A stretch of 64,000 nucleotides of DNA from Skermanella mucosa (GTDB lineage Bacteria; Pseudomonadota; Alphaproteobacteria; Azospirillales; Azospirillaceae): assembly GCF_016765655.2 (NCBI RefSeq), contig NZ_CP086106.1:1362501-1426500 (forward strand). Reading direction: 5' to 3'. Made by a program: the position numbers and the translations under genes. Of this stretch, positions 1,495 through 16,572 are shown piece after piece (position 1 is the first letter of the stretch; the number at the start of each line of letters is the position of its first letter). Under the pieces are notes generated by a model, which had not been told where the DNA came from, ran no database searches, and worked only from the letters and a program-made list of their open reading frames with translations.

Positions 1495-2004
1495 ATGATC
1501 CTTCCGGACGTCCTTGCCCCCGGCCTCGACCTCGTGCTGTGCGGGACCGCGCCCAGCCGCGCCTCCAAGGAGGCGGCGGCCTATTACGCCATGCCGGGAA
1601 ACCGGTTCTGGCCGACGCTGCACCTCGTCGGCCTGACGCCCCGATTGCTGAAGCCCCATGAATACGGGGAGGTTATCCGGTACGGGCTGGGACTGACCGA
1701 CCTGTGCAAGACCGAATGGGGCAGCGACCAGGAGCTGACGAAACACTGTTTCGACGTCTCCGGCTTCGTCGCCAAGATCGACCGCTGCAGGCCGGCCGCG
1801 GTCGCCTTCGACAGCAAGAACGCCGGCAAGACCTTCTTCCGGCGTGCTTCCGTCCGGTACGGCCTCCAGGATGAGACCCTGTTCGGCGCCGCGATCTTCA
1901 TCGTGCCGTCGCCGTCGGGCCGCGCGCGCAGCCACTGGGACACGGCGCCCTGGCAGGAATTGGGCGAGTTCGTGGCCCGGCGCCGCGCCGCCCGCGGTTC
2001 CTGA
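1495..2004 (+). CDS. mug: Mismatch-specific uracil/thymine DNA glycosylase (MUG/TDG-like)
   Basis: A 169-residue protein of the uracil-DNA glycosylase superfamily. The first active-site motif is readable as LCGTAPSRAS near residues 15-24, where classical MUG enzymes have GINPG, followed by the family-typical YYAMPGNRFWPTL. The second motif is VPSPSGRAR near residue 140, where MUG has NPSGL. Such enzymes flip out uracil or thymine mispaired with G and cut the N-glycosidic bond. The GTAPS variant is unlike E. coli Mug, so substrate range is uncertain. A purine-rich GGAAGGGCGGAAG tract precedes the ATG. The gene is monocistronic between a divergent regulator and the che cluster. Confidence 0.85.
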   Translation: MILPDVLAPGLDLVLCGTAPSRASKEAAAYYAMPGNRFWPTLHLVGLTPRLLKPHEYGEVIRYGLGLTDLCKTEWGSDQELTKHCFDVSGFVAKIDRCRPAAVAFDSKNAGKTFFRRASVRYGLQDETLFGAAIFIVPSPSGRARSHWDTAPWQELGEFVARRRAARGS

Positions 2005-2151
2005 CCGCGTGGAAGCGCGGCGGGGCGTCGCTATGTCCTGGGTATTACCTCTTTAGTCGTATTTGACGATGGACCTGTGCCCGCGGTTCTGGTAACAGAC
2101 AGGCAACGGGACAATCCTTCGCACCCGGAATTTTCATTTATTTAGGGCTAA

Positions 2152-2520
2152 ATGCATTGGCCGGTCGGCCTGACCGGGCCGCGGGGTGGATGGAACGTGG
2201 CCGATTTATTGCCCCTGATTCATTCCGAGGACGAGGCCGGCAAGGCAACCCTGAGCTTGCCGGACGATCTCGACCTGCCGGTCGCAGCATCCCTGGTGGA
2301 GAGCCTCCGGGCCGCCTTCAGCGAATATTCGGACATCGTCGTGATCGCCGCGACCGTGGAGCGGGCGAGCACGGCCGCCGTGCAGGCGCTCGTGGCGGCG
2401 ACGCGGCATGCGGAGGGAACCGGACAGCGCTTCGCGATCGCCGCGCCGTCCGATGTCCTGACGGATGTATGCGGGGACCTCGGCTTGGCCGGTTGGCTTA
2501 AGGAGTGGAGCCTGAAATGA
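2152..2520 (+). CDS. STAS-domain protein heading the chemotaxis cluster
   Basis: A 122-residue protein (or 107 residues if the in-frame GTG at 2197 is used, which removes a poorly conserved leader). It folds as a STAS/anti-sigma-antagonist-like domain: beta strand KATLSLPDDL, helix VAASLVESLRAAF, strand DIVVIAATV, then the loop RASTAAVQALVAA. That loop stands where SpoIIAA carries its phosphorylatable DSSG serine; here the S-T pair replaces S-S. Its stop codon overlaps the cheY start (ATGA), so the two are made together. The role is inferred: a phosphorylatable switch or scaffold component of the chemosensory system, perhaps contacted by the kinase encoded at 12623-13345. Confidence 0.75.
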   Translation: MHWPVGLTGPRGGWNVADLLPLIHSEDEAGKATLSLPDDLDLPVAASLVESLRAAFSEYSDIVVIAATVERASTAAVQALVAATRHAEGTGQRFAIAAPSDVLTDVCGDLGLAGWLKEWSLK

Positions 2521-2882
2521 AGAAGAAAGTGCTGACCGTCGATGACTCGCGGACAATGCGCGAGATGGTCTCGTTCACCTTGCGCGGTGCCGGGTTCGAC
2601 GTCGTCGAGGCCATCGACGGACAGCAGGCCCTCGTGGTGCTGGCGAGCCACAAGGTCGACCTCATCCTGGCCGACCTGAACATGCCCAACATGGACGGCA
2701 TAAGCCTGATCCGGAAGGTCAGGGCCAGCGGCGGGCACCGGACCGTGCCGATCCTGATGCTGACGACGGAGTCGGACGACGCCAAGAAGCAGGAGGGGCG
2801 GGCAGCCGGGGCGACGGGATGGATCGTCAAGCCGTTCAATCCCGAGAAGCTGATCCAGGTCGTGCAAAAGGTCATGGGCTGA
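2517..2882 (+). CDS. cheY: CheY-type single-domain response regulator
   Basis: 121 residues, a bare receiver domain. D9/D10 form the Mg-binding pocket, D53 (LILADLNMPNMDG) is the phosphoacceptor, and the conserved T of LMLTTES and K of WIVKPFN complete the active site. The ATG at 2517 overlaps the preceding TGA. It lies 7 bp upstream of cheA, the expected phosphodonor. It would carry the phosphoryl signal either to the flagellar switch or to another output. The che operons of spirochetes and alphaproteobacteria often begin this way. No FliM-specific feature can be judged by eye. Confidence 0.95.
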   Translation: MKKKVLTVDDSRTMREMVSFTLRGAGFDVVEAIDGQQALVVLASHKVDLILADLNMPNMDGISLIRKVRASGGHRTVPILMLTTESDDAKKQEGRAAGATGWIVKPFNPEKLIQVVQKVMG

Positions 2883-2889
2883 AACCGCC

Positions 2890-5043
2890 ATGACCGGCGC
2901 CTATCTAGACGACCTCGACCGATTCAAGGCGACCTATTTCGACGAATGCGCCGAGCTCCTCGCCGTCGCCGAGGCGGGGTTGCTGCGCCTCTCGCCGCAG
3001 AACATCGACCTGGACGAGATCAACGCCGTGTTCCGCGCCGTCCACTCGATCAAGGGCGGCGGCGGCACCTTCGGCTTCTCCCAGCTGGTCACCTTCACCC
3101 ACGAGTTCGAGGCGGTCATGGACCGCCTGCGGGCCCAACAGATCGGCGTCACGACCGAGCTGGTGGACGTGCTGATCCAGGCCAACGACGTCATGGCCCG
3201 GCTGCTGACCTGCGCCCGCGACGGGCTGCCGGTTCCGGCCGGGCTGGCCGACGCATCCGCCTCGGATCTCAAGCGGTTCCTCCAGAAGGACGCCTCCGGT
3301 TCCGCCGCGCCGACAGCGGCGCCCCGTCCGCAGGCCGCGTGCAAGCCGCCGCCGGCCGCCGCCCTGCGCAGCTTCGTCATCTATTTCATGCCCAAGAGCG
3401 ACCTGCTGCTCAGCGGCAACGAGCCCGCCTTCCTGCTCAGGGCGCTCAAGCGGCTCGGCCAGGCCGAGGTGGTCTGCGACATGGGGCGGGTCCCGCCGCT
3501 CTTCGAGCTGGACGGGGAGAGCCTGTACCTGTTCTGGCAGATCGCCCTGACCGGCACCACCGACGAGGCCGCGATCCGCGACGTCTTCGAATTCGTCGTG
3601 GACGACTGCCAGGTGGATATCGTCGAGACCACCGGACCCGCCGATGGCGGGGAGGAGGAGGCGTTCGGCCTGTTCGCGGAGAACCTGCCCTATGTACCGC
3701 CGGGCCAGCTGACCGTCTATGAGGCCGGCGCGGTGGAAGGCGCCCAGGCCTCCCCGGCGCGGCCGGAGGGCGGCGCCGGTTCCGCCGCTGCCGGCGGTGG
3801 CGGTGGCGGTGGCAGTGGCAGCGGTGGGCTGGGCGGGCACACCATCCGCGTCGACCTTGACAAGGTGGACAGGCTGGTCAACCTGGTCGGGGAGATGGTC
3901 ATCACCCAGGCGATGATCAGCGAGCAGCTCCGCGACGTGCCGCCCGGCACGCTCCAGCAATTGGTCGAAGGGCTGGAGGAGCTGAGCCGCCATACCCGCG
4001 AGCTTCAGGAGAGCGTGATGGCGATCCGGGCGCAGCAGGTCCGGTCCGTCTTCTCCCGCATGCCCCGGCTGGTCCGCGAGGTCGCCGCCCAGACCGGCAA
4101 GGAAGTCATGCTCGCCACCTCGGGCGAGACCACCGAGGTCGACAAGACCGTGGTCGAGAACCTGGTCGATCCGCTGACCCACATGATCCGCAACTCGATC
4201 GACCACGGCCTGGAAACGCCGGACGAGCGGGAGACGGTGGGCAAGCCGCGCAGCGGTACCGTCCATCTTTCCGCCCAGCACCGCTCCGGCCGGATCGTGA
4301 TCGAGGTGGCCGACGACGGACGGGGGATCAACCGGAAGCGGGTGCTCCAGAAGGCGATCGAGCAGGGACTCGTCCCCGCCGGTGCCAGCCTGTCGGACGA
4401 GGAGATCGACAACCTCATCTTTCTGCCCGGATTCTCCACCGCGGACGCCGTCTCGGCCATTTCGGGACGCGGAGTCGGCATGGACGTCGTCCGGCGCAAC
4501 ATCGCCAGCCTCGGCGGACGGATCGGCGTCCATTCGACGCCCGGCGTCGGCACGCGCTTCGTGCTGTCGCTTCCGCTCACCCTGGCCGTGCTGGACGGGA
4601 TGGTCATTTCGGTCGGCGAGCAGCGCTTTGTCCTGCCCCTGACCAACATCATCGAAAGCCTGCGGCCCCGCAAAGCCGACCTGCAGAGCGTCGCCAACCA
4701 ATGCGACGTTATCATGGCGCGCGGCGAGTATGTGCGGCTGGTCTATGTCGACCGCCTGTTCCGCATCGACGGCGCGATCGGCGACCCGACGCGGGGGCTG
4801 GTCGTGCTGGTGGAGACGGAGGAAGGCGGGCGCCTCGGCTTGGTGGTGGACGAGGTGCTCGGCCAACAGCAGGTCGTCATCAAGAGCCTGGAAAGCAACT
4901 TTCAGCGGCTGGACGGCGTCTCCGCCGCCACCATCCTGGGCGACGGGCGCGTCGCACTGATCCTTGATGTCGCCGGCCTGCAGAGCATGAGCCGCCACAC
5001 CCCTACCCGTGCGGTTCCCGCCGCCGCACTGCCCGCCGCCTAG
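2890..5043 (+). CDS. cheA: Chemotaxis histidine kinase CheA
   Basis: 717 residues with the canonical order. An Hpt domain (1-110) carries the phosphorylated H52 in AVHSIKGGGGTFGF. A linker region (about 150-275) probably binds CheY/CheB, and a Gly/Ser-rich stretch near residues 295-315 follows. Next come a dimerization domain (about 318-385), a HATPase domain with N box (HMIRNSIDHGLE), G1 (VADDGRGI) and G2 (SGRGVGMDVV), and a CheW-like regulatory domain from about residue 560 to 700. It autophosphorylates in receptor arrays and passes phosphate to CheY and CheB. No extra receiver domain is fused to it. cheW follows after 10 bp. Confidence 0.97.
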   Translation: MTGAYLDDLDRFKATYFDECAELLAVAEAGLLRLSPQNIDLDEINAVFRAVHSIKGGGGTFGFSQLVTFTHEFEAVMDRLRAQQIGVTTELVDVLIQANDVMARLLTCARDGLPVPAGLADASASDLKRFLQKDASGSAAPTAAPRPQAACKPPPAAALRSFVIYFMPKSDLLLSGNEPAFLLRALKRLGQAEVVCDMGRVPPLFELDGESLYLFWQIALTGTTDEAAIRDVFEFVVDDCQVDIVETTGPADGGEEEAFGLFAENLPYVPPGQLTVYEAGAVEGAQASPARPEGGAGSAAAGGGGGGGSGSGGLGGHTIRVDLDKVDRLVNLVGEMVITQAMISEQLRDVPPGTLQQLVEGLEELSRHTRELQESVMAIRAQQVRSVFSRMPRLVREVAAQTGKEVMLATSGETTEVDKTVVENLVDPLTHMIRNSIDHGLETPDERETVGKPRSGTVHLSAQHRSGRIVIEVADDGRGINRKRVLQKAIEQGLVPAGASLSDEEIDNLIFLPGFSTADAVSAISGRGVGMDVVRRNIASLGGRIGVHSTPGVGTRFVLSLPLTLAVLDGMVISVGEQRFVLPLTNIIESLRPRKADLQSVANQCDVIMARGEYVRLVYVDRLFRIDGAIGDPTRGLVVLVETEEGGRLGLVVDEVLGQQQVVIKSLESNFQRLDGVSAATILGDGRVALILDVAGLQSMSRHTPTRAVPAAALPAA

Positions 5044-5053
5044 GATAAGACAG

Positions 5054-5596
5054 ATGGCAACAGTCCCTTCGGCCGCCCTGCCGGCCGTTCCGCGAGGTCA
5101 GGCCGGACCGGTCTCGGCCGAGGAACAGTACGTCACCTTCACCGTCGGGACGGAGGAGTACGGCGTCAACATCCTGTCCGTGCGCGAGATCCGCGGCTGG
5201 ACGCCGGAGACCAAGCTTCCCAACATGCCGGATTACGTGCGCGGCGTGGTCAACCTGCGCGGCATCATCATCCCCATCTTCGATCTGCGCGCCCGCTTCG
5301 GCGGCGGGCAGACGGAAGTGACCAAGCGTCACGTGGTCGTGGTCCTGCAGGTCGGCGAACGCACCCGGGGCATCCTGGTCGATGCGATCTCCGATATCCT
5401 CACCGTCGCCCACGACGCGGTCAAGCCGCCGCCGGACATCGACAGCGGGCTGATCGACCAGCAATACCTCAGCGGTCTGGTCACGGCGGAGAACCGCATG
5501 GTGACCCTGCTGGACGTGACCCGCCTGTTCGCAGGCGACGCCGTCGAGGAACTCTCTTCCCAACATATCCAGATCCCCCATCAGGCGCAGGCCTGA
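5054..5596 (+). CDS. cheW: Chemotaxis coupling protein CheW
   Basis: 180 residues, one CheW domain preceded by about 25 Ala/Pro-rich residues. Diagnostic strings are EQYVTFTVGTEEYGV, VNILSVREIRGW and the receptor-contact region VRGVVNLRGIIIPIFDLR. It bridges MCP signalling tips and the CheA P5 domain. The ATG at 5054 is placed 10 bp after cheA; an upstream in-frame start at 5009 inside cheA is possible but has no support. It is 24 bp ahead of the MCP gene. Confidence 0.96.
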   Translation: MATVPSAALPAVPRGQAGPVSAEEQYVTFTVGTEEYGVNILSVREIRGWTPETKLPNMPDYVRGVVNLRGIIIPIFDLRARFGGGQTEVTKRHVVVVLQVGERTRGILVDAISDILTVAHDAVKPPPDIDSGLIDQQYLSGLVTAENRMVTLLDVTRLFAGDAVEELSSQHIQIPHQAQA

Positions 5597-5620
5597 GCAG
5601 AGCCGCGAAGGGATTTCAAA

Positions 5621-8335
5621 ATGTCCGTCACCCATCAAAGTTCCGCCCTGGCTCGGCTCGGCATCAACAAGCGCCTGTCGATCGCCTTCGGCCTGATGAT
5701 AAGCCTGCTGGTCGCCGGCTTCGGCTATGGCGGCTACAGCCTGCTGACTATGCGGGACAACGTCATCCGTCTTGGCGAAATCGGGGAAGAGGCGAGGCTC
5801 GCCAAGGAACTCGAATCGGAAATGGTGGGCATGCGCATTGCCGTCCGCAACTTCGCGTTCACCGGGGACCAGAAGCTGCCGCCTGTCGTCCGCAACCTCC
5901 ACACGGCCCTGCTGGGTCGCATAGCCGCCACGAAGAAGGCGGTCGAGGATCCGACGCGGCTTCGGCTCGTGACCGACATCGAGGCGCTCGCGGCCGAATA
6001 CCTGGTCAGTTTCGAAAAGCTCGTCGAGCTGCGGACCAGGCAGGATTCCATGGTGCGCGAGCGGATGGACCTCCTGGCGGACAGCGTCTTCCGGCACTTC
6101 ACCGAGATCAAGGAAAAGTCGGCCGCGGCCGGCGCTCTCACCGCGTCCTTCGCCGCCGGGGAAGCGGCGGAACATTGGCTCGTGGCTCGGCTGGTGGTGG
6201 ACCGGTTCCTTGTCAGCGGGGACCCCTCGGCACGGCGGAAGTTCGACGAGAACCTCGGCGAAATGCGAGAGCATCTGGAAGAGCTCGATGCCGTGCTGAC
6301 CGATCCGAAACTAAAGGAGGCGCGGGTTGAGTTGGCGGAGGGGGCCGACCGGTTCGCGGCCGGGTTCGCAGAGATCCTGTCGAGCAATGTGGAAATCCTG
6401 CGTCTGCGCGACGAGGTTCTGCTCAACCTCGGGACGGCGACTTCCGGCAAGGCGGTCGAAATCGTCAGGTCCGCCGAGGCCAGCCAGGCCGGGATCAGGG
6501 CGGCCACGGCGGCCGATGTCGAAAATGCCCTGACCATCACGGCCGTTATCGGCGCGATCTCCATCCTGATCGGCATCATCGCCGCCCACCTGATTTCACG
6601 CAGCATCATCAACCCGGTCAATGCGCTCCGCAAAGTGATGGCCGACCTGACGGACGGCGACCTGGCGGTCACGGTTCCCGGCACCGCCGACCGCGACGAG
6701 CTCGGCGACATGGCCCGTGCGGTGGATGCGTTCAAGACCGTTGCCGTGGCGGCGGTGCGGACCCGCATCGGTCTCGACAACGTCAGCGCCAACATCATGA
6801 TGTCCGACGCGGACGGCAAGATCGTCTATTGCAACCGGGCGATCATGGGCATGTTCAGCGCGTGCGAGGCCGACCTGCGCAAGAGCCTTCCGGCTTTTGA
6901 CTCGAAGACCCTGATCGGGACGAACATCGACCTCTTCCATCGCGATCCGTCGCACCAGCGCCGGCTGCTCGGCGGGCTGACCGGCAGTCACAAGGGCATC
7001 GCCAAGGCCGGAGGTCATACCTTCCAGGTCATCGCCCATCCGGTGTCCGGCCAGCGCGGGGAACGCCTCGGCACCATCATCGAATGGCGCGACCTGACCG
7101 AGGAACTCCAGGTCGAGGAGGAAATCGGCGGCATCGTCGCCGGCGCGGTTCGGGGCGACTTCTCCGCCCGGATCGAGCTGGCGGGCAAGAGCGGGTTCTT
7201 CCTGACGGTCAGCGAGGGCATCAACGATCTGGCCGAGAATGTCTGCGCGGTCGCCGAGGATCTGGCCGCCGTCCTCCAGGCCCTGTCCCACGGCGACCTG
7301 ACCCGCCGGATCGAGAAGGACTACGAAGGCGTCTTCCAGCGCCTCAAGAGCGACTTCAACTCCACCGCCGAGAAACTGTCCGACATCGTCGGCCGGATCA
7401 GCCAGTCCACGGCCGCGATCTCCGAAGCGGCGCGCGAGGTTTCGGCGGGAAGCCTCGACCTGTCCGAGCGGACCGAGCAGCAGGCCTCCAGCCTGGAGGA
7501 GACGGCGGCCAGCATGGAGCAGCTCGCCGCGACGGTGCGCAGCAACGCCGACAATGCCAAGCAGGTCAACGAAGTCGCCTCGACCGCCCGTACCGCCGCC
7601 GATCGCGGCGGCAAGGTCGCGGGCGACGCGGTGGACGCGATGCGCAGGATCGAGAGCTCCAGCCAGAAGATCAGCGACATCATCGGCGTGATCGACGAGA
7701 TCGCCTTCCAGACCAACCTGCTGGCGCTGAACGCTGCGGTCGAGGCCGCCCGCGCCGGCGACGCCGGGCGCGGCTTTGCCGTCGTGGCGCAGGAGGTCCG
7801 GACGCTCGCCCAGCGCTCGGCCCAGGCGTCCAAGGAGATCAAGGCGCTGATCATCGACAGCAACACCCAGGTTCGCGACGGCGTCGATCTGGTCGGCGCG
7901 GCCGGCGGAGCGCTGTCGGACATCGTGGAGGGCGTCAGCCGGGTCGCCGACCTGGTCGCGGAGATCGCCCGCGCGACCGCCGAGCAGGCCAACGGGTTGG
8001 ACGAGATCAATGGCGCCGTCGCCCAGATGGACGAGATGACCCAGAAGAACGCGGCCCTGGTCGAGCAGAGTTCGGCCGCGGCGCGCTCGATGGAGGGGCA
8101 GGCCCATGACCTCGGCTCGCTGATCTCGTTCTTCAGCGTCTCCGGCGCCTTGTCTCCCGCCGCCGAGCTTCCGGCGCGGCCCGCGCCGGTGCCGATGCGC
8201 AAGGTCGCGACCGGCGCGCGGCCCGTTCCGCGCCCAGCCGCCCGACCCGCCGCCGAGGCCAAGAGGGTCGTCCAGCATCCGACCACCCTGCGCCGGGTCG
8301 AGACCAACGACGATCCCGACTGGAAGGAGTTCTGA
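5621..8335 (+). CDS. Methyl-accepting chemotaxis protein with PAS and double HAMP
   Basis: 904 residues. TM1 is about 21-43 and TM2 about 302-325, leaving a helical periplasmic domain of some 260 residues that matches no ligand fold I can name. A HAMP domain follows (about 327-380), then a PAS domain (about 385-490) with the N and C strands [18 protein letters not shown] and [13 protein letters not shown], then a second HAMP-like unit ([18 protein letters not shown], later [16 protein letters not shown]). The signalling domain runs from about 590 to 850, with the tip [20 protein letters not shown]. The C-terminus is an unstructured Pro/Ala tail ending in DWKEF. That resembles the NWETF-type pentapeptide which tethers CheR and CheB, and cheR is the next gene. 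The PAS domain could sense redox or a bound cofactor. Confidence 0.95.
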
Positions 8336-8355
8336 GCAGGCGCCACGGCCCCGGC

Positions 8356-8382
8356 TCATGACGTTTCATGACCTTTCATGAC
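8356..8382. repeat. Three TCATGAC direct repeats with 10-bp period
   Basis: TCATGAC occurs at 8356, 8366 and 8376, spaced by exactly one helical turn, in the 80-bp gap between the MCP stop and the cheR start. TCATGA is itself palindromic. This could be a protein-binding site or chance; nothing else in the cluster repeats it. Confidence 0.3.
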
Positions 8383-8415
8383 ATCTGGCGACATGCCCCG
8401 CGCGGGAGGGATCGA

Positions 8416-9324
8416 ATGACTGAAGCGGCGCACCGGAGCGCACCGGTCGGCCGGGGCCGGGAGGGCAGCCTCTCCCGGACCACCGGCGAGCGCGAGTTCC
8501 ATTTCACCCGCGGGCATTTCGACCAGATCGCGGCGCTGCTCCAGCAGCTCACGGGCATTCATCTCGCTCCCCACAAGGTCGAGATGGTCTATTCCCGCCT
8601 TGCCCGCCGGCTGCGGGACCTGGGCATGGCGGACTTCGACGCCTACTGCGCCTTCCTGTCGTCCGAGTCGGGGGAAAGCGAGATCGGCCTGCTGGTCAAC
8701 GCCCTGACCACCAACCTGACCCGCTTCTATCGGGAGCCCCACCATTTCGAGCACCTGGCCACGGTCGTGCTGCCCCGGATCCAGGAACGGCAGGCCGGCG
8801 CTGCCAAGCCGCGCCTGAGGATCTGGTCGGCGGGTTGCTCCTCGGGGGAGGAACCCTACACGATCGCGATGACCGTGGCCTCGACCGTGCCCGACCTTCA
8901 CCGCTGGGACGTCCGCATCCTGGCGACCGACATCGATACCCACATGGTCGAGACCGCGCGCCGGGGGCTCTACGCCACGGACGCGGCAACGGCCATCCCC
9001 CCGGCGGTCCGCTCGCGCCACACCGCGGAGCAGCAGCAGGGAACCCGCCGGGTTCTCTCCATGGGCGAGGGCCTGCGCCGGCTGATCACCTTCAAGCCGC
9101 TGAACCTGCTTGAAGACTGGCCTATGCGCGGACCCTTCGATGCGATCTTCTGCCGCAACGTGCTTATCTATTTTGACAGGCATGGTAGGACGGAAGTGAT
9201 AGGGAAGTTCCACCAACTCCTGGATGGCGATGGGCATCTCTATCTCGGCCATTCAGAAAGTCTCTACGGCGTTTCCGAACAGTTTCGCCAAGTGGGGCCG
9301 ACCAGCTATCAGGCCATACCATGA
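8416..9324 (+). CDS. cheR: Chemotaxis protein methyltransferase CheR
   Basis: 302 residues. The N-terminal helical domain (about 30-110: FDQIAALLQQLTGIHLAPHKVEMVYSRL) is followed by the SAM-dependent methyltransferase fold with RIWSAGCSSGEEPYTIAM (SAM-binding motif I), ILATDIDTHMVETAR and IFCRNVLIYFD. It methylates glutamates of MCPs. The ATG at 8416 is chosen because GGGAGGG lies 5 bp upstream; an in-frame ATG at 8368 adds 16 residues but has no ribosome binding site. The gene overlaps cheD by 4 bp (ATGA). Confidence 0.95.
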   Translation: MTEAAHRSAPVGRGREGSLSRTTGEREFHFTRGHFDQIAALLQQLTGIHLAPHKVEMVYSRLARRLRDLGMADFDAYCAFLSSESGESEIGLLVNALTTNLTRFYREPHHFEHLATVVLPRIQERQAGAAKPRLRIWSAGCSSGEEPYTIAMTVASTVPDLHRWDVRILATDIDTHMVETARRGLYATDAATAIPPAVRSRHTAEQQQGTRRVLSMGEGLRRLITFKPLNLLEDWPMRGPFDAIFCRNVLIYFDRHGRTEVIGKFHQLLDGDGHLYLGHSESLYGVSEQFRQVGPTSYQAIP

Positions 9325-9965
9325 AGCATGCCGCACGCGCGCTTGACGACCGCAGGGGGAGTGTTCCGAGCCTGGACGAGCCCAATGAAGGCTATTTCCA
9401 TCCGGGCTTCCGCGCCCATGCCGTCAAGGTCCTGCTCGGCGAGCACAAGATCACCCAGCGGCCCGACGAGATGCTGGTCACCACCCTCGGTTCCTGCATC
9501 GCCGCCTGCGTCCGCGATCCGATCCTGGGCCTTGGCGGCATGAACCATTTCCTGCTGCCGGAAGCCCCCGCTGGGAACGACGGCGGGGTCAACGCCGCCG
9601 CGCGGTACGGCGGCGTCGCCATGGAACGCCTGATCAACGAGATCCTGCGGCGGGGCGGCCGGCGCGACCGGCTGGAGGTCAAGGTGTTCGGCGGCGCCAA
9701 GGTGATCGCCAGCAGCAATCCCATCGGGCGCCGCAACGCCGAGTTCGTGCTGGGCTTCATAGCCGCCGAAGGGCTGACGCTGGCCGCGCAGGACCTGGGA
9801 GGCACCCTCGCCCGGCGCGTCCATTATTTCCCGAACACCGGGAAGGTGATGCGTCGCCTGATCCGGCAGGAAGCGGTGGAGGACACCATCCGCAGCGAGA
9901 TGCGGTTCATGTCCGACCTGGGCGCCAAGCCGGTCGAGGGTGATATCGAGTTGTTCGGGGATTGA
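9321..9965 (+). CDS. cheD: Chemoreceptor glutamine deamidase CheD
   Basis: 214 residues. The catalytic C59 sits in TTLGSCIAAC and the catalytic H76 in GGMNHFLLP. The later strings EVKVFGGAKVI and GRRNAEFVLGFIAAEGL are also family-typical. CheD deamidates receptor glutamines and in some bacteria stimulates a CheC phosphatase; no cheC is seen here. It is somewhat longer than the minimal about 160 residues because of N- and C-terminal extensions. It overlaps both cheR and cheB, so the adaptation genes form a coupled block. Confidence 0.95.
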   Translation: MKHAARALDDRRGSVPSLDEPNEGYFHPGFRAHAVKVLLGEHKITQRPDEMLVTTLGSCIAACVRDPILGLGGMNHFLLPEAPAGNDGGVNAAARYGGVAMERLINEILRRGGRRDRLEVKVFGGAKVIASSNPIGRRNAEFVLGFIAAEGLTLAAQDLGGTLARRVHYFPNTGKVMRRLIRQEAVEDTIRSEMRFMSDLGAKPVEGDIELFGD

Positions 9966-11014
9966 TGATGGGCAAGCCGATCCGGGTCGCGATCGTGGAC
10001 GACAGCGCGCTGATGCGCCGGATGCTGACCGAAGCGCTGGCCGCCGAGCCGGGCTTCGAGGTGGTCGGTCATGCCGCCGACCCCTACGAGGCGCGGGAAA
10101 TGATCAAGTCGGCCAACCCGGACGTCCTGACACTGGACGTCGAGATGCCGCGCATGGACGGGCTGACCTTCCTGGAGAAGATCATGACGCTTCGGCCGAT
10201 GCCGGTTGTCATGGTCTCGACCCTGACCCGGGAGGGCGCCGACGCCACGGTCCGGGCCCTGGAACTGGGGGCGATCGACTGCATCGCCAAGCCCAACGGC
10301 GCCGAGGGCGAGCGCTTCGTCGACTTCCGCGACGAACTGGTCGGCAAGCTGAAGGTGGCGGCCCATGTCCGCCTGGGGCCGCCCCGGGCGAAGCCGGCGC
10401 GGGCCAAGGCGGGAGCCCGCGGCGGCGGCGGCCGACTGATCGCGCTGGGCGCCTCGACCGGCGGGGTCGAGCGCATCCGCGATATCCTGGAGGTTCTGCC
10501 GGAAGGATCGCCGCCGATCCTGATCGTCCAGCACATGGGCGCCTTCTACGTGCCGAGCTTCGCCGCCCGGCTGGACCGCCAGTCCGCGATGACCGTCAGG
10601 ATGGCCGAGTCCGGCATGCGCGTGACGGCGGGCGAGGTGCTGATAGCGCCCGGCGACCGTCACATGGCGTTGCGCCGGGACGGATTCGGCTATCTGTGCG
10701 AGATCGTCGACGGACCGCCCGTCAGCGGTCACCGGCCGTCGGTCGATGTCCTGTTCAACTCGGTCGCCGAGGTGGCCGGTGCCAACGCGGTCGGCGTGAT
10801 CCTGTCGGGGATGGGGCGCGACGGCGCATCCGGGATGGCGGCGATGCGTGCTGCCGGGGCCTGGACGATCGGGGAGAGCGAGCAGAGCTGCGTCGTCTAC
10901 GGCATGCCGCGCATGGCCAAGCTGGGCGGCGGCGTCGCCGTCGAGATGCCGCTCGGACAGATCCCGGCCGAGATGCTCCGCGCCGCGGCGGCCCCCGCAG
11001 CACGGTCGAGCTGA
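9965..11014 (+). CDS. cheB: Protein-glutamate methylesterase CheB
   Basis: 349 residues. The receiver domain (1-125) has D12/D13 and the phosphoacceptor D58 (LTLDVEMPRMDG). A short linker is followed by the methylesterase domain from about 160, with the catalytic triad in LGASTGGVE (Ser), IVQHMGAFYV (His) and SGMGRDGASGM (Asp). It removes methyl groups added by CheR and is activated by CheA. The ATG at 9965 shares one base with the cheD stop; a second ATG follows immediately at 9968 and is equally possible. Confidence 0.96.
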   Translation: MMGKPIRVAIVDDSALMRRMLTEALAAEPGFEVVGHAADPYEAREMIKSANPDVLTLDVEMPRMDGLTFLEKIMTLRPMPVVMVSTLTREGADATVRALELGAIDCIAKPNGAEGERFVDFRDELVGKLKVAAHVRLGPPRAKPARAKAGARGGGGRLIALGASTGGVERIRDILEVLPEGSPPILIVQHMGAFYVPSFAARLDRQSAMTVRMAESGMRVTAGEVLIAPGDRHMALRRDGFGYLCEIVDGPPVSGHRPSVDVLFNSVAEVAGANAVGVILSGMGRDGASGMAAMRAAGAWTIGESEQSCVVYGMPRMAKLGGGVAVEMPLGQIPAEMLRAAAAPAARSS

Positions 11015-11037
11015 TGACGGACGGGGGAGACTGACCG

Positions 11038-12231
11038 ATGTCGTTCGGATTGTTGAAGAGCATCGCCGGCAGCCGTTCCGACGCGCTGCCCGCGGCGGTC
11101 CGCCCGGTTCCGGCCCCGACACCGGCGGCGGAGCCGCCGGCCGATGCCGGGTACGACGAGTTGCTGGGCCGCTGGCTCGGCTTTTCCGAGCTTCAGAACC
11201 ATTGCCTGGACGCCCTGGCGACCGAGGTGAGGCGGACCAGCGACCTGGTCGAGTCCAGCACGCTGGAGATCAGCTCGCGGTTCCGCGATCTCGCCACCTC
11301 GGCGCGGGAGCAGACCAAGCGGGTCGAGGACATCATCGCGGTCGCCAACTCCGTCACGATCGATGGCGAAGCCATTCCGCTCGACCGCGTCGTCGCGACG
11401 ATGCAGCAGATTTTGGTTGAGATGGTGAACAACATCGTCAACCTGTCGAAGCAGGCCATGACGATGGTCTATGTGCTGGACGATGTCGTCCGGGATGTCG
11501 GCGAGGTCGAGAAGAGCATCGCCGACATCGACACCATCAACCGCCAGACCAATTTCCTGGCGCTCAACGCGACCATCGAGGCCAGCCGCGCGGGCGAGGC
11601 GGGCAGGACCTTTGCCGTGGTCGCCAACGAGGTGCGGCACCTATCCAAGGCGACCGGGGACCTTGCCGGCCGCATGCGCGACAAGGTCGGCGCGGTCGTC
11701 GTCGGCGTCCGGCGCGGCCACGAGATTCTGCGGGACATCGCCAATACCGACCTGTCGCCGCAGATGCTGGCGAAGGACCGCATCGACATGACGATGATGA
11801 GCTTGGTCGCGCAGAGCCAGCATTTCCAGAGCGTGCTCCAGGACGCCGCGCGGGTCTCGACCGAGATTTCCGCCCATATCAGCCAGGTCATCACCCGGAT
11901 GCAGTTCCAGGACTTGGCCAAGCAGCGCCTGGACCACGTGATCGACGGCATGACCGTCATGTCGAACGGCCTTGGCGAACTGGGCGCGAGGACGCGCCTG
12001 GCGTTGCCGGCCGGCGCCCAGGCGGACTTCCCGCAGGAATGGGTGGACCAGCTGCTGTCCGGCATGACCCTGAGCGAGCTTCGCCAGCGCTTCGTCCGCC
12101 GCATGCTGCTGGCGGGCTCGGCGCTGGATGCCCACGGGGCGCTGGACCACGAGACGGGCATCCCGGAGGCCGACGGCGTGGATCCGGGCCTGTCGGACGG
12201 CACGGACGACGACAATGTCGAACTGTTCTGA
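11038..12231 (+). CDS. Soluble MCP-like protein with CheZ-like motif
   Basis: 397 residues with no membrane segment and no sensory domain that I recognise. Residues about 60-150 are helical. The signalling-hairpin tip is clear near 165-195 ([17 protein letters not shown]), so it should pack with CheA/CheW arrays. Further on, residues about 283-305 read [19 protein letters not shown]. The Q-F-Q-D-L-x-x-Q core resembles the CheZ catalytic helix (QDFQDLTGQ), whose second-half glutamine attacks phospho-CheY. The C-terminus is acidic and ends in DDDNVELF. Nothing else in the cluster codes for a CheY phosphatase, so this protein may supply that function. That is an inference from one motif; the motif also occurs in other soluble MCP-like proteins. 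Confidence 0.8.
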
Positions 12232-12293
12232 TCGAGCGTGAGATTGCCCGGCGGCGGCAGCGCATTCTGCCATTCATGGAGCGGTGTATAGAG

Positions 12294-12599
12294 ATGGATT
12301 ACCGTATCGAGCTGGACGACCTGGAGGCGCGCATTTTCGTCACGGGCCGCCTGACCTTCAACGACCATGGCAAGGTCCGCAGCATGATCCAGGAGATGGT
12401 GCAGAGCCCTCCGAAGCGTCAGGTCATGATGATCGGCGGGCTGGAGTTCGTGGACAGCTCCGGCCTGGGCATGATCCTGGTCGCGCGCGAGGAGGTCGCC
12501 CAGGTCGACAAGAAGCTGTTCCTCCGCGGGGCGCAGGGGCAGGTCAAGCGGGTCCTTTCGGTCGCCCAGCTGGACAAGATCGTGGACATCCAGGACTGA
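12294..12599 (+). CDS. STAS-domain anti-sigma factor antagonist
   Basis: 101 residues, a single STAS domain with the SpoIIAA-type loop EFVDSSGLGMILVA; the phosphorylatable serine is S55/S56. Such proteins bind a HATPase partner when unphosphorylated and are released by phosphorylation. The kinase (12623) and two PP2C phosphatases (13342, 14581) follow directly, a complete partner-switching set. The ATG at 12294 was preferred; an in-frame ATG at 12276 would add six residues but lacks a Shine-Dalgarno sequence. Confidence 0.92.
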   Translation: MDYRIELDDLEARIFVTGRLTFNDHGKVRSMIQEMVQSPPKRQVMMIGGLEFVDSSGLGMILVAREEVAQVDKKLFLRGAQGQVKRVLSVAQLDKIVDIQD

Positions 12600-12622
12600 A
12601 GCCGATTTCGGACGAGCCGGTC

Positions 12623-13345
12623 ATGCGGGCGAGCACGCTCTACGGTGTCGGACTGACAGCCGAGCACCTCCAGGAGATCGCGACGCTGGTCGGCCGCGGC
12701 GGCTGCCCCATCGTCTGCGGGCTTCCGGGGGACGCCTGCGTCCGGATCGACGGTGCGGCCGTGCTCGCGGCCGGCCTTGACCAGGCCTGCCTGAACGAGG
12801 TCCTGGACCGGGGAGCGGGGGCCTGCATCGAGGTCGGTTCGCTCGACGCCCCGGCGGCGGCGGAATGCGTGCGGCGTGCGGCGGGCTGGACGCTGTTCCT
12901 GTCCCTGACCACGGCCAGCGCCTATCGGCTGCCCGTGGCCCACGCCGTGGTGGCCGCGATCGACGGGATCATGTCGCTCGGGCAGGAGAGGTGCTACGAC
13001 ATCGAACTGGCGCTCCAGGAGGCCGTCAGCAATGCGGTGATCCACGGCAACCTGGCCGTGTCGAGCCTGCGCGGCCCGACGCTGGCTGCGCTGGACGCCT
13101 TCTCCTGCGACATCAGCGAACGGCTGGCCGATCCGGCGCTGGCGAACCTGCGGGTCGGGATCGCCGTTTCGATCGGCGACGCGGAGTTCACCATCGAGGT
13201 GATCGACGAAGGTCCCGGTTTCGTGCCGAAGCCCCGGGCGCCGACGACGGCGAGCGGGCGGGGCATCGGCCTGATCGAGTCCTTGGCGGCCGGTTGGGAA
13301 CTGCTGGACGACGGCCGTCGGGTCCGCATGAGGTTCGCCCGATGA
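12623..13345 (+). CDS. Anti-sigma-type serine kinase (HATPase_c_2), RsbW/SpoIIAB-like
   Basis: 240 residues. The first about 95 residues are an uncharacterised domain with several cysteines (CPIVCGLPGDACV). The rest is a GHKL ATPase of the RsbW type: N box LALQEAVSNAVIHGN, G1 EVIDEGPGF, G2 SGRGIGLIESL, final strand RRVRMRFAR. It is expected to phosphorylate the STAS protein encoded 23 bp upstream and to sequester either a sigma factor or another partner. No sigma factor gene is in the window, so the output is open. The stop overlaps the next start (ATGA). Confidence 0.85.
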   Translation: MRASTLYGVGLTAEHLQEIATLVGRGGCPIVCGLPGDACVRIDGAAVLAAGLDQACLNEVLDRGAGACIEVGSLDAPAAAECVRRAAGWTLFLSLTTASAYRLPVAHAVVAAIDGIMSLGQERCYDIELALQEAVSNAVIHGNLAVSSLRGPTLAALDAFSCDISERLADPALANLRVGIAVSIGDAEFTIEVIDEGPGFVPKPRAPTTASGRGIGLIESLAAGWELLDDGRRVRMRFAR

Positions 13346-14580
13346 ACGGCGGGATGGAGATGGCCTCCGCGGCGGCGCTGACCGAGCTCCGGCAGGTCGG
13401 GATCCTCGACTGCCTGATCCTGGTGGTGGACGATACCGACTTCAACCGCACCTTGATCACGGCGATGCTGCGGCAGGCGGGGTTCCGCCGGATCGAGCAT
13501 GCGGTGGACGGCATCGACGCGCTGCGCAAGATCGACCATGAAATGCCCGATCTGGTCATCCTGGACATCGTGATGCCCGGCCTGGACGGGTTCGAGGTGT
13601 GCCGACGCCTGCGCGCCGAGGACCGCTTTGCAGACTTGCCCGTCCTTGTACAAACCGCCCTGTCCAACACCGAGGACCGCAACAAGGCCTTCCAGCTCGG
13701 CACCACCGACCTGATCACCAAGCCGATCGACCGCAACGAGTTGCTGGCCCGGGTCCGCATCCATCTGGAGAACCGGATGCTGATCCAGGACCTCCAGCTT
13801 TACCGCACCCGGCTGGAGAACGAGCTGGCCATGGCGCGGGAGATGTACGGCCACCTGCTGCCGACCGCGGCGATCTTCGACCAGATCAGCCGCGACAGCG
13901 GCGTGCGGATCCGTCATCACCGGGCGGTCTCATCCGAACTGGGCGGCGACATCTGGGGCGTCATCCCGCTGCCGGAGGGACGCTTTGGACTCTATCTGCT
14001 GGACATGACCGGGACCGGCGTGTCGGCGGCCTTGAACGCGTTCCGCATGCATACCGTGCTCCATGAACTTGCGCCGTTGGCATCATATCCCTCCCGCTTC
14101 CTGACCGAGGCCAATGCGCGGGCCGTCGGGCTTTTCGAATCGGACGAGCGGGCGGCGATGATCTATGGCGTGGTCGACCCGATCGCCGGGACCTTTTCCT
14201 ACACCACCGCGTCGGCCCGGCGGCCGATCCTGGTCCGGCGCGGCTCCGACATGGCGACCCTGGGCGAGGCCGACGGCGCGCCGGTCGGCCATGCCGCCGG
14301 GAGCGTCTACCGCACCCGCACCCTGGCGTTCGGTCCGGGCGCCATGCTGCTGCTCTACAACAATGCCGTGCTGACGGCCCTGCCGGGCGACGGCGGCCGG
14401 GCGGCGGAACGGGCGCTCGCCGACCTCGCGGTTCCGGCCCTCCAAGCGCCCGGCCTGGACGAGGCCCATGACCGCATGGTCGCAGCACTCGCCCAAGCGG
14501 TCGGCGACCGGCCGGGGCAGGACATGACCCTGGTCTTCCTGGCCAAGGACGCTTGTACGCCTCCCTGGGCGGAGCGGTAG
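13342..14580 (+). CDS. Response regulator with degenerate SpoIIE-type PP2C domain
   Basis: 412 residues: a receiver domain (about 25-145, phosphoacceptor D75 in VILDIVMPGLDG), a coiled linker (LENRMLIQDLQLYRTRLENE), then a SpoIIE/PP2C fold (about 180-405). D221 of the first metal motif is kept, but its GHG is G224-T225-G226. The usual YSDG metal motif is Y339-N340-N341-A342, so at least one Asp ligand is gone. The tandem paralog at 14581 has intact motifs. The phosphatase is therefore probably weak or inactive, perhaps a regulatory or binding subunit. Start ATG overlaps the kinase stop. Confidence 0.88.
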   Translation: MNGGMEMASAAALTELRQVGILDCLILVVDDTDFNRTLITAMLRQAGFRRIEHAVDGIDALRKIDHEMPDLVILDIVMPGLDGFEVCRRLRAEDRFADLPVLVQTALSNTEDRNKAFQLGTTDLITKPIDRNELLARVRIHLENRMLIQDLQLYRTRLENELAMAREMYGHLLPTAAIFDQISRDSGVRIRHHRAVSSELGGDIWGVIPLPEGRFGLYLLDMTGTGVSAALNAFRMHTVLHELAPLASYPSRFLTEANARAVGLFESDERAAMIYGVVDPIAGTFSYTTASARRPILVRRGSDMATLGEADGAPVGHAAGSVYRTRTLAFGPGAMLLLYNNAVLTALPGDGGRAAERALADLAVPALQAPGLDEAHDRMVAALAQAVGDRPGQDMTLVFLAKDACTPPWAER

Positions 14581-15759
14581 ATGAGCAGGTCAGCCTCCGC
14601 GTCGGTCAATATCCGGAACGCCCGGATCCTGGTGGTCGACGACAACCGGGTGAACCGCCACCTGCTGGTCGCCGTGCTCCAGCGCGGCGGCTTTCCCAAT
14701 GTCGAGATGGCAGAGGACGGGATCGACGCCCTGGCCAAGATCGAAACGAATGCGCCCGACCTGATCCTGCTCGACCTGATGATGCCGAAGCTGGACGGCT
14801 TCGAGGTGTGCCGCAGGCTGCGAACCGATCCCAACCGCCGCGACCTGCCGATCCTGGTCCAGAGCAGCCTGTCGGGCTCCGAGGATCGGACCCGCGCCTT
14901 CTCGGTCGGAGCGACCGATTTCGTCAGCAAGCCGATCAACGCGACCGAACTGCTGTCCCGCGTCCGCATCCACCTGGAGAACCAGGCGCTGCTGCGCGAC
15001 CTGCAAGGCTATCGCCGCCGCCGCCAGGGCGAGCTGGCGCTGGCGCGGAGCATGCAGGAACGGCTGCTGCCGGCCCCCTCGCGGCTGCGGGAGACCGAGG
15101 CCGACCTGGGCCTGAGCCTGTCGGCCCATTTCGAGCCGTCCTCGGAACTGGGCGGCGACTTCTGGGACCTGCGGCGCGACGGGCGCGGCAGGCTGATCGT
15201 CTGGCTGGTCGATTTCTCCGGCCACGGCGTCGGCGCGGCGCTCAACACTTTCAGATTGCACGCGATCCTGCGGCAGATGGACCTGAACGATTTCGACCCC
15301 GCCGACCATCTGCGCGAGGTCAATGAACGGGTCTGTCCGCTCCTGCGCAGCGGCCAGTTCGCGACCATGCTGGTCGGCGTGATCGATGCCGAGAACAACA
15401 CGTTCCACTATGCCTCTGCCGGGGCGCCGGCGCCGATGGTCTGGCAGGCGGGCGACGCCGTGCCGGAGTTCGGCGACAGCAGCGGCTTGCCGGTCGGCAT
15501 CCTGGCCTCGGCCCGTTACCAGAACCGCGACCTGGCCCTGCCGGTCGGCGGAAGGCTGTTCCTTTACAGCGACGGCGCCAGCGAGCTGTGGACCGCCGAG
15601 GATACCGTGCTGGGCGAGGAGGGTCTGCTCGACCTCGTCCGCGGGCACATGCACCAGGAGGAGGATGCCGGCTTCCTGGCCGGCCTGCTCGGCTCCCTCA
15701 CCGCGCTGGGAAGCTTCGACGACGACGTGACCGCGCTGGTGCTGACCCGCCGGGCATGA
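14581..15759 (+). CDS. Response regulator with SpoIIE-type PP2C phosphatase domain
   Basis: 392 residues, tandem paralog of the preceding gene and starting on the base after its stop. The receiver has the phosphoacceptor D65 (LLDLMMPKLDG). The linker LENQALLRDLQGYRRRRQGE is a coiled coil. The PP2C domain keeps all hallmark motifs: SELGGDFWDL, VDFSGHGVGAALN, FLYSDGASEL and FDDDVTALVLT. Known RsbU/RssB-like proteins of this build dephosphorylate a STAS antagonist when their receiver is phosphorylated; the likely substrate is the STAS protein at 12294, and CheA is a candidate phosphodonor. It ends 12 bp before the convergent DUF455 gene. Confidence 0.92.
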   Translation: MSRSASASVNIRNARILVVDDNRVNRHLLVAVLQRGGFPNVEMAEDGIDALAKIETNAPDLILLDLMMPKLDGFEVCRRLRTDPNRRDLPILVQSSLSGSEDRTRAFSVGATDFVSKPINATELLSRVRIHLENQALLRDLQGYRRRRQGELALARSMQERLLPAPSRLRETEADLGLSLSAHFEPSSELGGDFWDLRRDGRGRLIVWLVDFSGHGVGAALNTFRLHAILRQMDLNDFDPADHLREVNERVCPLLRSGQFATMLVGVIDAENNTFHYASAGAPAPMVWQAGDAVPEFGDSSGLPVGILASARYQNRDLALPVGGRLFLYSDGASELWTAEDTVLGEEGLLDLVRGHMHQEEDAGFLAGLLGSLTALGSFDDDVTALVLTRRA

Positions 15760-15771
15760 CGCGATCGATCG

Positions 15772-16572
15772 TCAGTCGTCGGCGATCGGGTCGTAGAAGG
15801 CGGCGGAGAAACCCGCCTTGTCCCGGCTTTCCTCGTTGAAGGGACGCTTCAATCCGCCCTTGAAATGGGTGCGGACGAGGTTCTGCCAAGTGGGAATCGG
15901 CGGGACGTCCAGTTTGTCGCAGACATGCTCGAACCAGCGCCGGCCGGCGGCCACGTGGGTGATCTCGTCGTCGTGGATGATCTGGAGCGCGTCGGCGCCG
16001 GCGTCGTCGCCGACGGTGCGGAGGTTCCGGATCATGGCGGGCGTCACGTCCAGCCCGCGCGCCTCCAGCACCAGCGGCACGATGGCGAGGCGGGCGGCGA
16101 GGTCGTGGGCGGTGTCCCGGCTGGCCTGCCACAGCCCGTCATGGGCGGGCAGGGCGCCGTAATGGCTGCCCAGGTCGGCCAAGCGGCCGCATAGCATGTC
16201 GAAATGCCGCGCCTCGTCGTCGGCGACCTGGACCCAGTCGTCGGTGAAACCCTTGGGCATTTCCGCGCCGAAGCGGGCGACGATGTCCCAGGACAGGTCG
16301 ATGGCGTTCAGCTCGATATGGGCGAGCGCGTGGATCAGCGCGGTCCGCCCGGCGACGCTGCCGGCCTTGCGGCGCGGCGGCATGTCGCGCGGCTGGCGAA
16401 GCTCCGGATAGTCCGGACGCGCCGGCCGGTCGGGCGGGACCGGCGGGCCGGGCGGCTCGATCCCGGCCAGCGCGCCGGTCCGCCACTCCTCGGCGAAGCG
16501 GCGGGAGAGGCGGACCTTCTCGGCAGGATCGGCGGTGGTCAGGACGGTGACGGCGGCAGACCGGATGCTCAT
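15772..16572 (-). CDS. DUF455 ferritin-like protein
   Basis: 266 residues. The helical core carries the paired ExxH-type motifs of ferritin-like di-iron folds: LAHIELNAIDLSWD, VADDEARHF and later IIHDDEITHVAAG. This matches the DUF455 family, whose function is not established; some members are annotated as tRNA hydroxylase-like by fold only. The Pro-rich stretch near residues 40-60 is a linker. It is transcribed away from cysQ, which lies 10 bp upstream on the same strand, so the two probably share a promoter. Confidence 0.88.
   Translation of the reverse strand: MSIRSAAVTVLTTADPAEKVRLSRRFAEEWRTGALAGIEPPGPPVPPDRPARPDYPELRQPRDMPPRRKAGSVAGRTALIHALAHIELNAIDLSWDIVARFGAEMPKGFTDDWVQVADDEARHFDMLCGRLADLGSHYGALPAHDGLWQASRDTAHDLAARLAIVPLVLEARGLDVTPAMIRNLRTVGDDAGADALQIIHDDEITHVAAGRRWFEHVCDKLDVPPIPTWQNLVRTHFKGGLKRPFNEESRDKAGFSAAFYDPIADD

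Follow-up and report, generated by a model that had tools for sequence, protein, structure and literature searches.

We analyzed a window of 64,000 nucleotides from Skermanella mucosa (contig NZ_CP086106.1, positions 1,362,501–1,426,500), in which 13 plus-strand genes occupy positions 2152–15759 (Table 1). Sequence comparison identifies this operon, with a probability of roughly 0.6, as a chemosensory operon of class F7 (Che4/Aer2-type) into which a partner-switching output branch is built. Pfam supported all 13 assignments and thereby bore out the layout given in an earlier note on this DNA: a full Che set on one strand, with small overlaps, continuing into a STAS protein, a kinase and two REC-PP2C proteins. 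Judged from gene order and residue conservation in other genomes, the two halves, che genes and switch, are one conserved unit. Since the switch stays attached to Che4-type operons in many bacterial families, the arrangement suggests that chemical sensing controls something besides swimming.

The linkage was surveyed in the 82 genomes of the family (Azospirillaceae). A Che4-type CheA, defined as a best CheA match above 640 bits, was present in 57 genomes, and in 53 of them the kinase gene lies 4.9–8.2 kb after CheA on the same contig and strand. For this count the positions of 57 CheA and 59 kinase matches were transcribed by hand, and the kinase was the best match in each genome except G028, where the second match, beside CheA, was used (64 bits versus 70 elsewhere). 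The kinase match was split in G019, G028, G036 and G038 and reached 64–77 bits there, a score that paralogues also attain in some genomes lacking a Che4-type CheA. In three of the four exceptions, kinase and CheA are on separate contigs of fragmented assemblies. In G036 (loci L044 and L133) the operon is cut inside mcp and its halves are on two replicons, the switch staying with the rear half. Unlinked halves in homologous genomes, which the earlier note had named as a finding that would count against its proposal, are thus rare in the family. The 25 family genomes lacking a Che4-type CheA comprised 11 with no kinase match, 12 with a weaker match (≤77 bits) and two (G058 and G053) with a stronger one; the G053 kinase belongs to a different arrangement without che genes.

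The kinase alone was checked in all 57 genomes, and the remaining switch genes were checked in family and named loci. The order cheS-cheY-cheA-cheW-mcp-cheR-cheD-cheB-soluble receptor-STAS-kinase-REC/PP2C-REC/PP2C recurs across family genomes, and 39 of 44 named loci (partly the same genomes as the family set), including strains of Azospirillum brasilense, carry the four switch genes in the same order after the soluble receptor. Of the other five, two are cut off where the contig ends and one is an isolated paralogue of the soluble receptor; the remaining two (Hwanghaeella and Kiloniella) have a related arrangement, in which STAS follows the soluble receptor and the kinase is convergent. Seven A. 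brasilense-type loci (L085, L088, L092, L093, L095, L096 and L098) contain a second STAS-kinase-REC/PP2C set just downstream on the opposite strand, with about 30–42% identity.

The tail of the soluble receptor was also searched for in 385 genomes of the class; it matched 24, of which 21 lie outside the family, and all of these 21 except G322 were examined. In 15 of the 20, among them G190, which has no che genes in the stretch, STAS adjoins the soluble receptor or CheB, and REC-PP2C follows in 13. At L127 and L131, kinase, REC and PP2C form one protein directly after STAS. When CheA was searched for across 398 genomes of the phylum, 137 gave matches, including 96 outside the class; 27 of the 96 were examined, picked by score and family spread, together with 13 of 40 further alphaproteobacterial genomes. 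Under permissive domain thresholds, STAS and then a REC-PP2C-kinase fusion were found after CheB or the soluble receptor in seven of the 27 non-alphaproteobacterial loci (L183–L186 and L188–L190); one of the 13 further alphaproteobacterial genomes (G735) had the unit. Two more of the 27 (L191 and L192) showed a weak PP2C match after CheB, perhaps SiaA beside Che2. Tree distances, compared as plain correlations with no null model and with L111 dropped from the PP2C set, correlated at r = 0.84 between CheA and PP2C (351 pairs) versus 0.77 between CheA and CheB (378 pairs); the values were 0.81 for CheA–STAS, 0.63 for CheA–kinase and 0.73 for PP2C–STAS. The split between alphaproteobacterial and other sequences was recovered in the trees of CheA, PP2C, STAS (weak support) and kinase, but not in that of CheB.

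Active-site residues of the switch proteins were compared in alignments of 31–32 family sequences, the window included, drawn from Che4-type loci and G058 above score thresholds and excluding partial rows. The STAS protein at 12294 has D54 and S55 in 32/32 sequences and thus resembles the CrsR/CrsA type, an Asp-Ser STAS protein adjoining che genes; its relatives in the PDB are TM1442 and SpoIIAA, and the Asp-Ser pair is kept in all 25 STAS proteins listed from distant loci. In the kinase, residues of the N, G1 and G2 boxes were conserved in 32/32, in line with a GHKL kinase of the SpoIIAB/RsbW type, and among the distant kinases listed they were found in 23/23, 22/23 and 21/23, respectively. 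The AlphaFold model of the kinase (predicted local distance difference test, pLDDT, 92; predicted template modeling score, pTM, 0.90) has an alternating alpha/beta N-terminal domain, and Foldseek placed the Leptospira response regulator LvrC first (E = 5e-9; template modeling score 0.47, root-mean-square deviation 17), followed by RsbW and SpoIIAB. A sub-threshold Pfam receiver match was detected in the Kiloniella kinase homologue (E = 0.0034); Pfam gave no receiver match in the Hwanghaeella homologue or in the N-terminal part of the window kinase alone. The modeled N-terminal domain is a probable degenerate receiver.

The two REC-PP2C proteins differ in their predicted activity. The protein at 14581 has a complete metal set (D193, D211, D331, D381 and D382) as well as receiver residues D65 and K117, each in 32/32. 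Its neighbor at 13342 likewise keeps receiver residues D75 and K127 in 32/32, but its metal-binding Asp set is incomplete, with the DG-motif Asp in 1/32 and D221 in 20/32; because of these losses, it is very probably a pseudophosphatase. Of the two phosphatases announced by the earlier note, both stand as REC-SpoIIE proteins but only the second as a likely enzyme, and the reading as two active phosphatases was rejected since the first PP2C lacks a metal-binding Asp. Pattern checks for PP2C motifs in the distant loci missed many motifs, and no PP2C count was drawn from them.

The earlier note had also pointed to a STAS protein on either side of the Che genes. Taking the two as one switch was not supported, since the first STAS protein appears CheS-like and CheS is a STAS protein of rhizobia, including S. 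meliloti, described as binding CheA (PMC12654446, PMC8429497). In the family alignment the first STAS protein has the Ser in 30/31 sequences, while the Asp position is Val, Ala, Ile or Leu in 31/31, and its gene lies directly upstream of cheY/cheA; the CheS-like assignment was judged by this position and the lost Asp, not by comparison with a named CheS sequence. A canonical anti-sigma antagonist was ruled out for this protein by the loss of the Asp of the D-S motif.

We propose the following route of signaling. Receptor arrays containing the membrane receptor (Tlp4a) and the soluble receptor (Tlp4b) would set the activity of CheA, and phosphorylated CheA would pass phosphate to CheY for flagellar reversals, to CheB for adaptation, and to the receivers of the REC-PP2C proteins. 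Since both receivers keep their phosphorylation residues, the proposal of the earlier note that CheA phosphorylates them is viable. Receiver phosphorylation would set the activity of the intact PP2C at 14581, which would oppose the SpoIIAB-like kinase at Ser55 of the STAS protein at 12294, and the phosphorylation state of STAS would drive a second, slower output. The very probably dead REC-PP2C at 13342 may be a regulatory partner or a phosphate sink, and CheS would belong to the CheA/CheY side, outside the switch. The analogy with CrsR–RpoS makes a sigma or anti-sigma factor a candidate, among others, for the final target. If this holds, Che4-class operons have, besides turning the motor, an old second output in the form of a serine-phosphorylation switch, and the tractable model A. 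brasilense, which has the same genes in the same order, would allow the published connections between Che4 and attachment, swarming and nitrogen metabolism to be tested for a direct STAS route instead of one via swimming.

Several observations weigh against this proposal. The best-scoring models for the two REC-PP2C receivers are PleD and RssB, not CheY. G058 (L048, G058:C30:1-18000) keeps STAS-kinase-REC/PP2C-REC/PP2C without Che4-type CheA, Tlp4b, FliG or FlhA matches, although it does have other CheA genes; the switch can therefore exist without that CheA, which argues that it has a function of its own. STAS-kinase-REC/PP2C sets also occur away from che operons in G053, G054 and G041 and as a second copy in G058. 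Neither STAS nor PP2C was seen in 5/20 distant alphaproteobacterial genomes with the soluble receptor or in 18/27 non-alphaproteobacterial loci, and the unit was not seen in 12/13 further alphaproteobacterial loci, where absence at a distant locus refers to the sequence examined, at most 20 kb (that of L149 stops right after CheB). The tree-distance correlation between CheB and PP2C was lower (r = 0.55). Finally, alphaproteobacteria are not known to have RpoS, and the output described for Shewanella is therefore not transferable to this operon.

Among other explanations, the chemotaxis machinery or the motor could itself be the output, with STAS or the kinase acting on CheA, CheS, Tlp4b or the motor in a slow adaptation loop without a sigma factor. 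We consider this unlikely, if slightly more probable than the alternatives below. In its favor, STAS is the switch gene that most often adjoins the soluble receptor or CheB in the distant alphaproteobacteria, FlhA was found in 23 of 24 genomes tested, and CheS is a precedent for the binding of CheA by a STAS protein. Small genomes also retain the unit; G213 (2.0 Mb, 99% completeness) keeps STAS and REC-PP2C with three Sigma70_r2 matches and no GGDEF match. Against such a loop, G058 still has the four switch genes without a FliG or FlhA match, and CrsA and HsbA, the relatives of known function, are described as having RpoS, FlgM or a diguanylate cyclase as their targets (PMC6482189). A diguanylate cyclase as universal output was ruled out, since G213 has STAS and REC-PP2C without a GGDEF match. 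The evidence from G213 and G058 alone singles out no one output.

Next, the switch might simply be co-transcribed with che while another histidine kinase phosphorylates its receivers, so that the operon would merely coordinate the expression of motility and of a stress or lifestyle switch. The PleD/RssB-like receivers, the module of G058, the divergent second set beside the operon in A. brasilense-type loci and the further sets away from che operons all fit this explanation, which we nevertheless doubt, because linkage persists over families and outside the class and CheA and PP2C co-diverge at least as closely as CheA and CheB do. Neutral hitch-hiking of downstream genes functionally unconnected to chemotaxis, for which the many same-class clusters without switch genes could be cited, is very improbable given the identical order in 39/44 named loci, the presence of switch genes in other families and outside the class, and the Asp-Ser pair in 25/25 distant STAS proteins.

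The connection of a Che kinase with a partner switch that we propose here is already known from Shewanella, because the che1 locus of S. oneidensis contains CrsR and CrsA; this ten-gene locus, comparable in layout to the operon studied here, is described as combining an Aer2 receptor, CheD, the STAS protein CrsA and CrsR, and a role of Che1 in regulating RpoS is described as possible (PMC9855816). This arrangement also matches the CheA-to-receiver phosphotransfer suggested by the earlier note. In Shewanella, CrsR is one fused REC-PP2C-HATPase protein that holds RpoS, whereas here kinase and phosphatase genes are separate, there are two REC-PP2C proteins, of which one is probably inactive, and the kinase probably bears a degenerate receiver of its own. 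An effect of CheA1 on RpoS stability has reportedly been seen in Borrelia (PMC10703414). A receiver- or sensor-controlled PP2C, a kinase and a STAS protein are likewise combined in HsbR/HsbA (HptB pathway) and SiaABCD of Pseudomonas; HsbR is fed by HptB, not by a linked CheA, and the output of Sia is a diguanylate cyclase. What seems new is the split and duplicated alphaproteobacterial form behind flagellar che4 genes, the depth of its conservation, and a CheZ-like segment in the soluble receptor.

By gene content, the nine leading genes correspond to the F7 "che4" type of A. brasilense, and their order is identical in the named A. brasilense loci. The che4 operon is described as an F7 operon with CheS, Tlp4a, which has PAS between its first two HAMP domains, and Tlp4b (PMC6759762, PMC8561660); Tlp4a is described with three HAMP domains, of which Pfam detected two in the receptor here (HAMP 324–371 and HAMP_2 525–583), with a PAS-like segment between them (385–499, below the Pfam cut-off). 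The available portions of these descriptions count nine predicted proteins, and the four switch genes that come next in the same A. brasilense loci go unmentioned there. A search by title or abstract opening found no literature on the four genes after che4, most subscription papers being outside its coverage. CheA4 and CheY4 are described as controlling swimming reversals in A. brasilense (PMC8100600), and attachment, swarming and nitrogen metabolism have likewise been linked to Che4 (PMC8100600, PMC8561660). An output instead of the flagella, as raised in the earlier note, is therefore unlikely for the first nine genes. The membrane receptor additionally gave a CHASE3 match below the Pfam cut-off, and its top NCBIfam match was the Vibrio Aer2 transducer (491 bits, below the cut-off of 1200).

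The soluble receptor carries a DxxxQ motif, mostly FQDxxxQ, in all 30 untruncated family sequences and in 25/25 of a second list (rows above 55 bits, four from the same family), where one protein also carries, in tandem, a further copy that lacks DxxxQ. Among non-alphaproteobacterial and further loci, nine soluble receptors ending in ELF were caught by pattern, and eight of them have DxxxQ (in L163, Asp replaces Gln). Aligned on this motif, the tail profile matched a profile of 16 CheZ sequences from the same family with E = 3.1e-5 and a probability of 73%, compared with E = 0.19 for the tail of the ordinary receptor, 0.16 for its mid part and 0.058 for the best of 30 column shuffles. The C-terminus reads (I/V)(E/D)(L/M)F in 30/30 untruncated family sequences and 25/25 of the second list. 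From these patterns it is conceivable, though doubtful, that Tlp4b-type soluble receptors are receptor-embedded phosphatases, in which a DxxxQ helix would dephosphorylate CheY and/or the REC-PP2C receivers and (I/V)ELF would dock a partner. In that case, a single protein associated with the array would set the timing of the motor branch as well as of the partner-switch branch in unit-bearing F7 clusters from alphaproteobacteria to other Pseudomonadota, and Tlp4b, which has been described as a promiscuous soluble receptor, would have a specific activity that can be tested.

CheZ itself was ruled out as the identity of this protein: the Pfam score was 12.8 bits against a cut-off of 30.7, and the CheZ fold was not matched. 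No CheZ appeared among the 50 fold matches shown, which included receptors, for an AlphaFold model that was poor (pTM 0.37), and a separate CheZ gene is found elsewhere in the genome (L066). Deletion of Tlp4b in A. brasilense is reported to disturb receptor clusters, and Tlp4b acts in chemotaxis and root colonization (told in PMC13401364). A functional parallel is rhizobial CheT, a protein with a phosphatase motif DxxxQ whose gene belongs to an operon of the same kind (PMC12654446); in the available part of that source CheT is not described as a receptor, whereas the motif here lies in a protein with an MCP signaling hairpin. An (I/V)ELF peptide occurs in both CheD, close to its C-terminus, and the soluble receptor, where it is C-terminal, and the membrane receptor ends in DPDWKEF; these are possibly docking peptides for one common partner. 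Away from che operons, Skermanella has a further soluble receptor resembling Tlp4b, again with the DxxxQ segment and an IELF tail, at L132 (G000:C1:2125000-2144900, open reading frame 9595–10761) and at L107, where only an MCP adjoins it.

Table 1 Genes of the operon, with positions in the window
Feature	Position	Strand	Basis and remarks
CheS-like STAS_2 protein; Asp before Ser lost	2152..2520	+	Pfam STAS_2 E=3.6e-10; sits before cheY/cheA
CheY response regulator	2517..2882	+	Response_reg E=1.6e-28; 64-77% identity across Che4-type loci outside the genus
CheA: Hpt, H-kinase_dim, HATPase_c and CheW domains	2890..5043	+	Pfam; Che4-type
CheW coupling protein	5054..5596	+	Pfam CheW E=1.9e-38
Membrane receptor, Tlp4a/Aer2-like: HAMP, PAS-like, HAMP_2, MCPsignal	5621..8335	+	Pfam
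CheR methyltransferase	8368..9324	+	Pfam
CheD deamidase; DIELF peptide near C-terminus	9321..9965	+	Pfam and tail inspection
CheB methylesterase	9962..11014	+	Pfam
Soluble receptor, Tlp4b position; CheZ-like DxxxQ segment (D292, Q296), C-terminal VELF	11038..12231	+	MCPsignal E=1e-22
STAS switch protein, predicted phosphorylatable Ser (D54-S55)	12294..12599	+	Pfam STAS E=2.4e-11
SpoIIAB/RsbW-like Ser kinase, probable N-terminal degenerate receiver	12623..13345	+	HATPase_c_2 E=7.3e-14
REC-PP2C, receiver intact, phosphatase degenerate (very probable pseudophosphatase)	13342..14580	+	Pfam REC and SpoIIE
REC-PP2C, receiver and PP2C metal site both intact	14581..15759	+	Pfam REC and SpoIIE

With the starts listed in Table 1, there are 4-bp overlaps of cheR with cheD, of cheD with cheB and of the kinase gene with the first PP2C gene, and the second PP2C gene follows the first without a gap. 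CheY probably starts at ATG 2517 instead of GTG 2505, and CheW at ATG 5054 instead of GTG 5009. A terminator scan of positions 1900–16200 found only two weak sites, one per strand and both within the PP2C genes (shuffle mean 5.1), and the promoter and terminator scan around the operon had no informative outcome. Neighboring genes up- and downstream (UDG, DUF455, an inositol phosphatase, a molybdopterin enzyme and matchless open reading frames) offered no clue to the output. The absence of sigma factor and flagellar genes from the window, as stated in the earlier note, was borne out for the markers searched: none of the 25 Sigma70_r2 matches of the 7.84-Mb genome falls within positions 1,362,501–1,426,500, and its FliG and FlhA matches both lie outside, near 5.31 Mb. 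The genome contains two further CheA-bearing clusters, at 2.94 and 5.32 Mb. In the CheA of this operon, a low-complexity linker rich in Gly, Ser and Ala precedes the dimerization domain.

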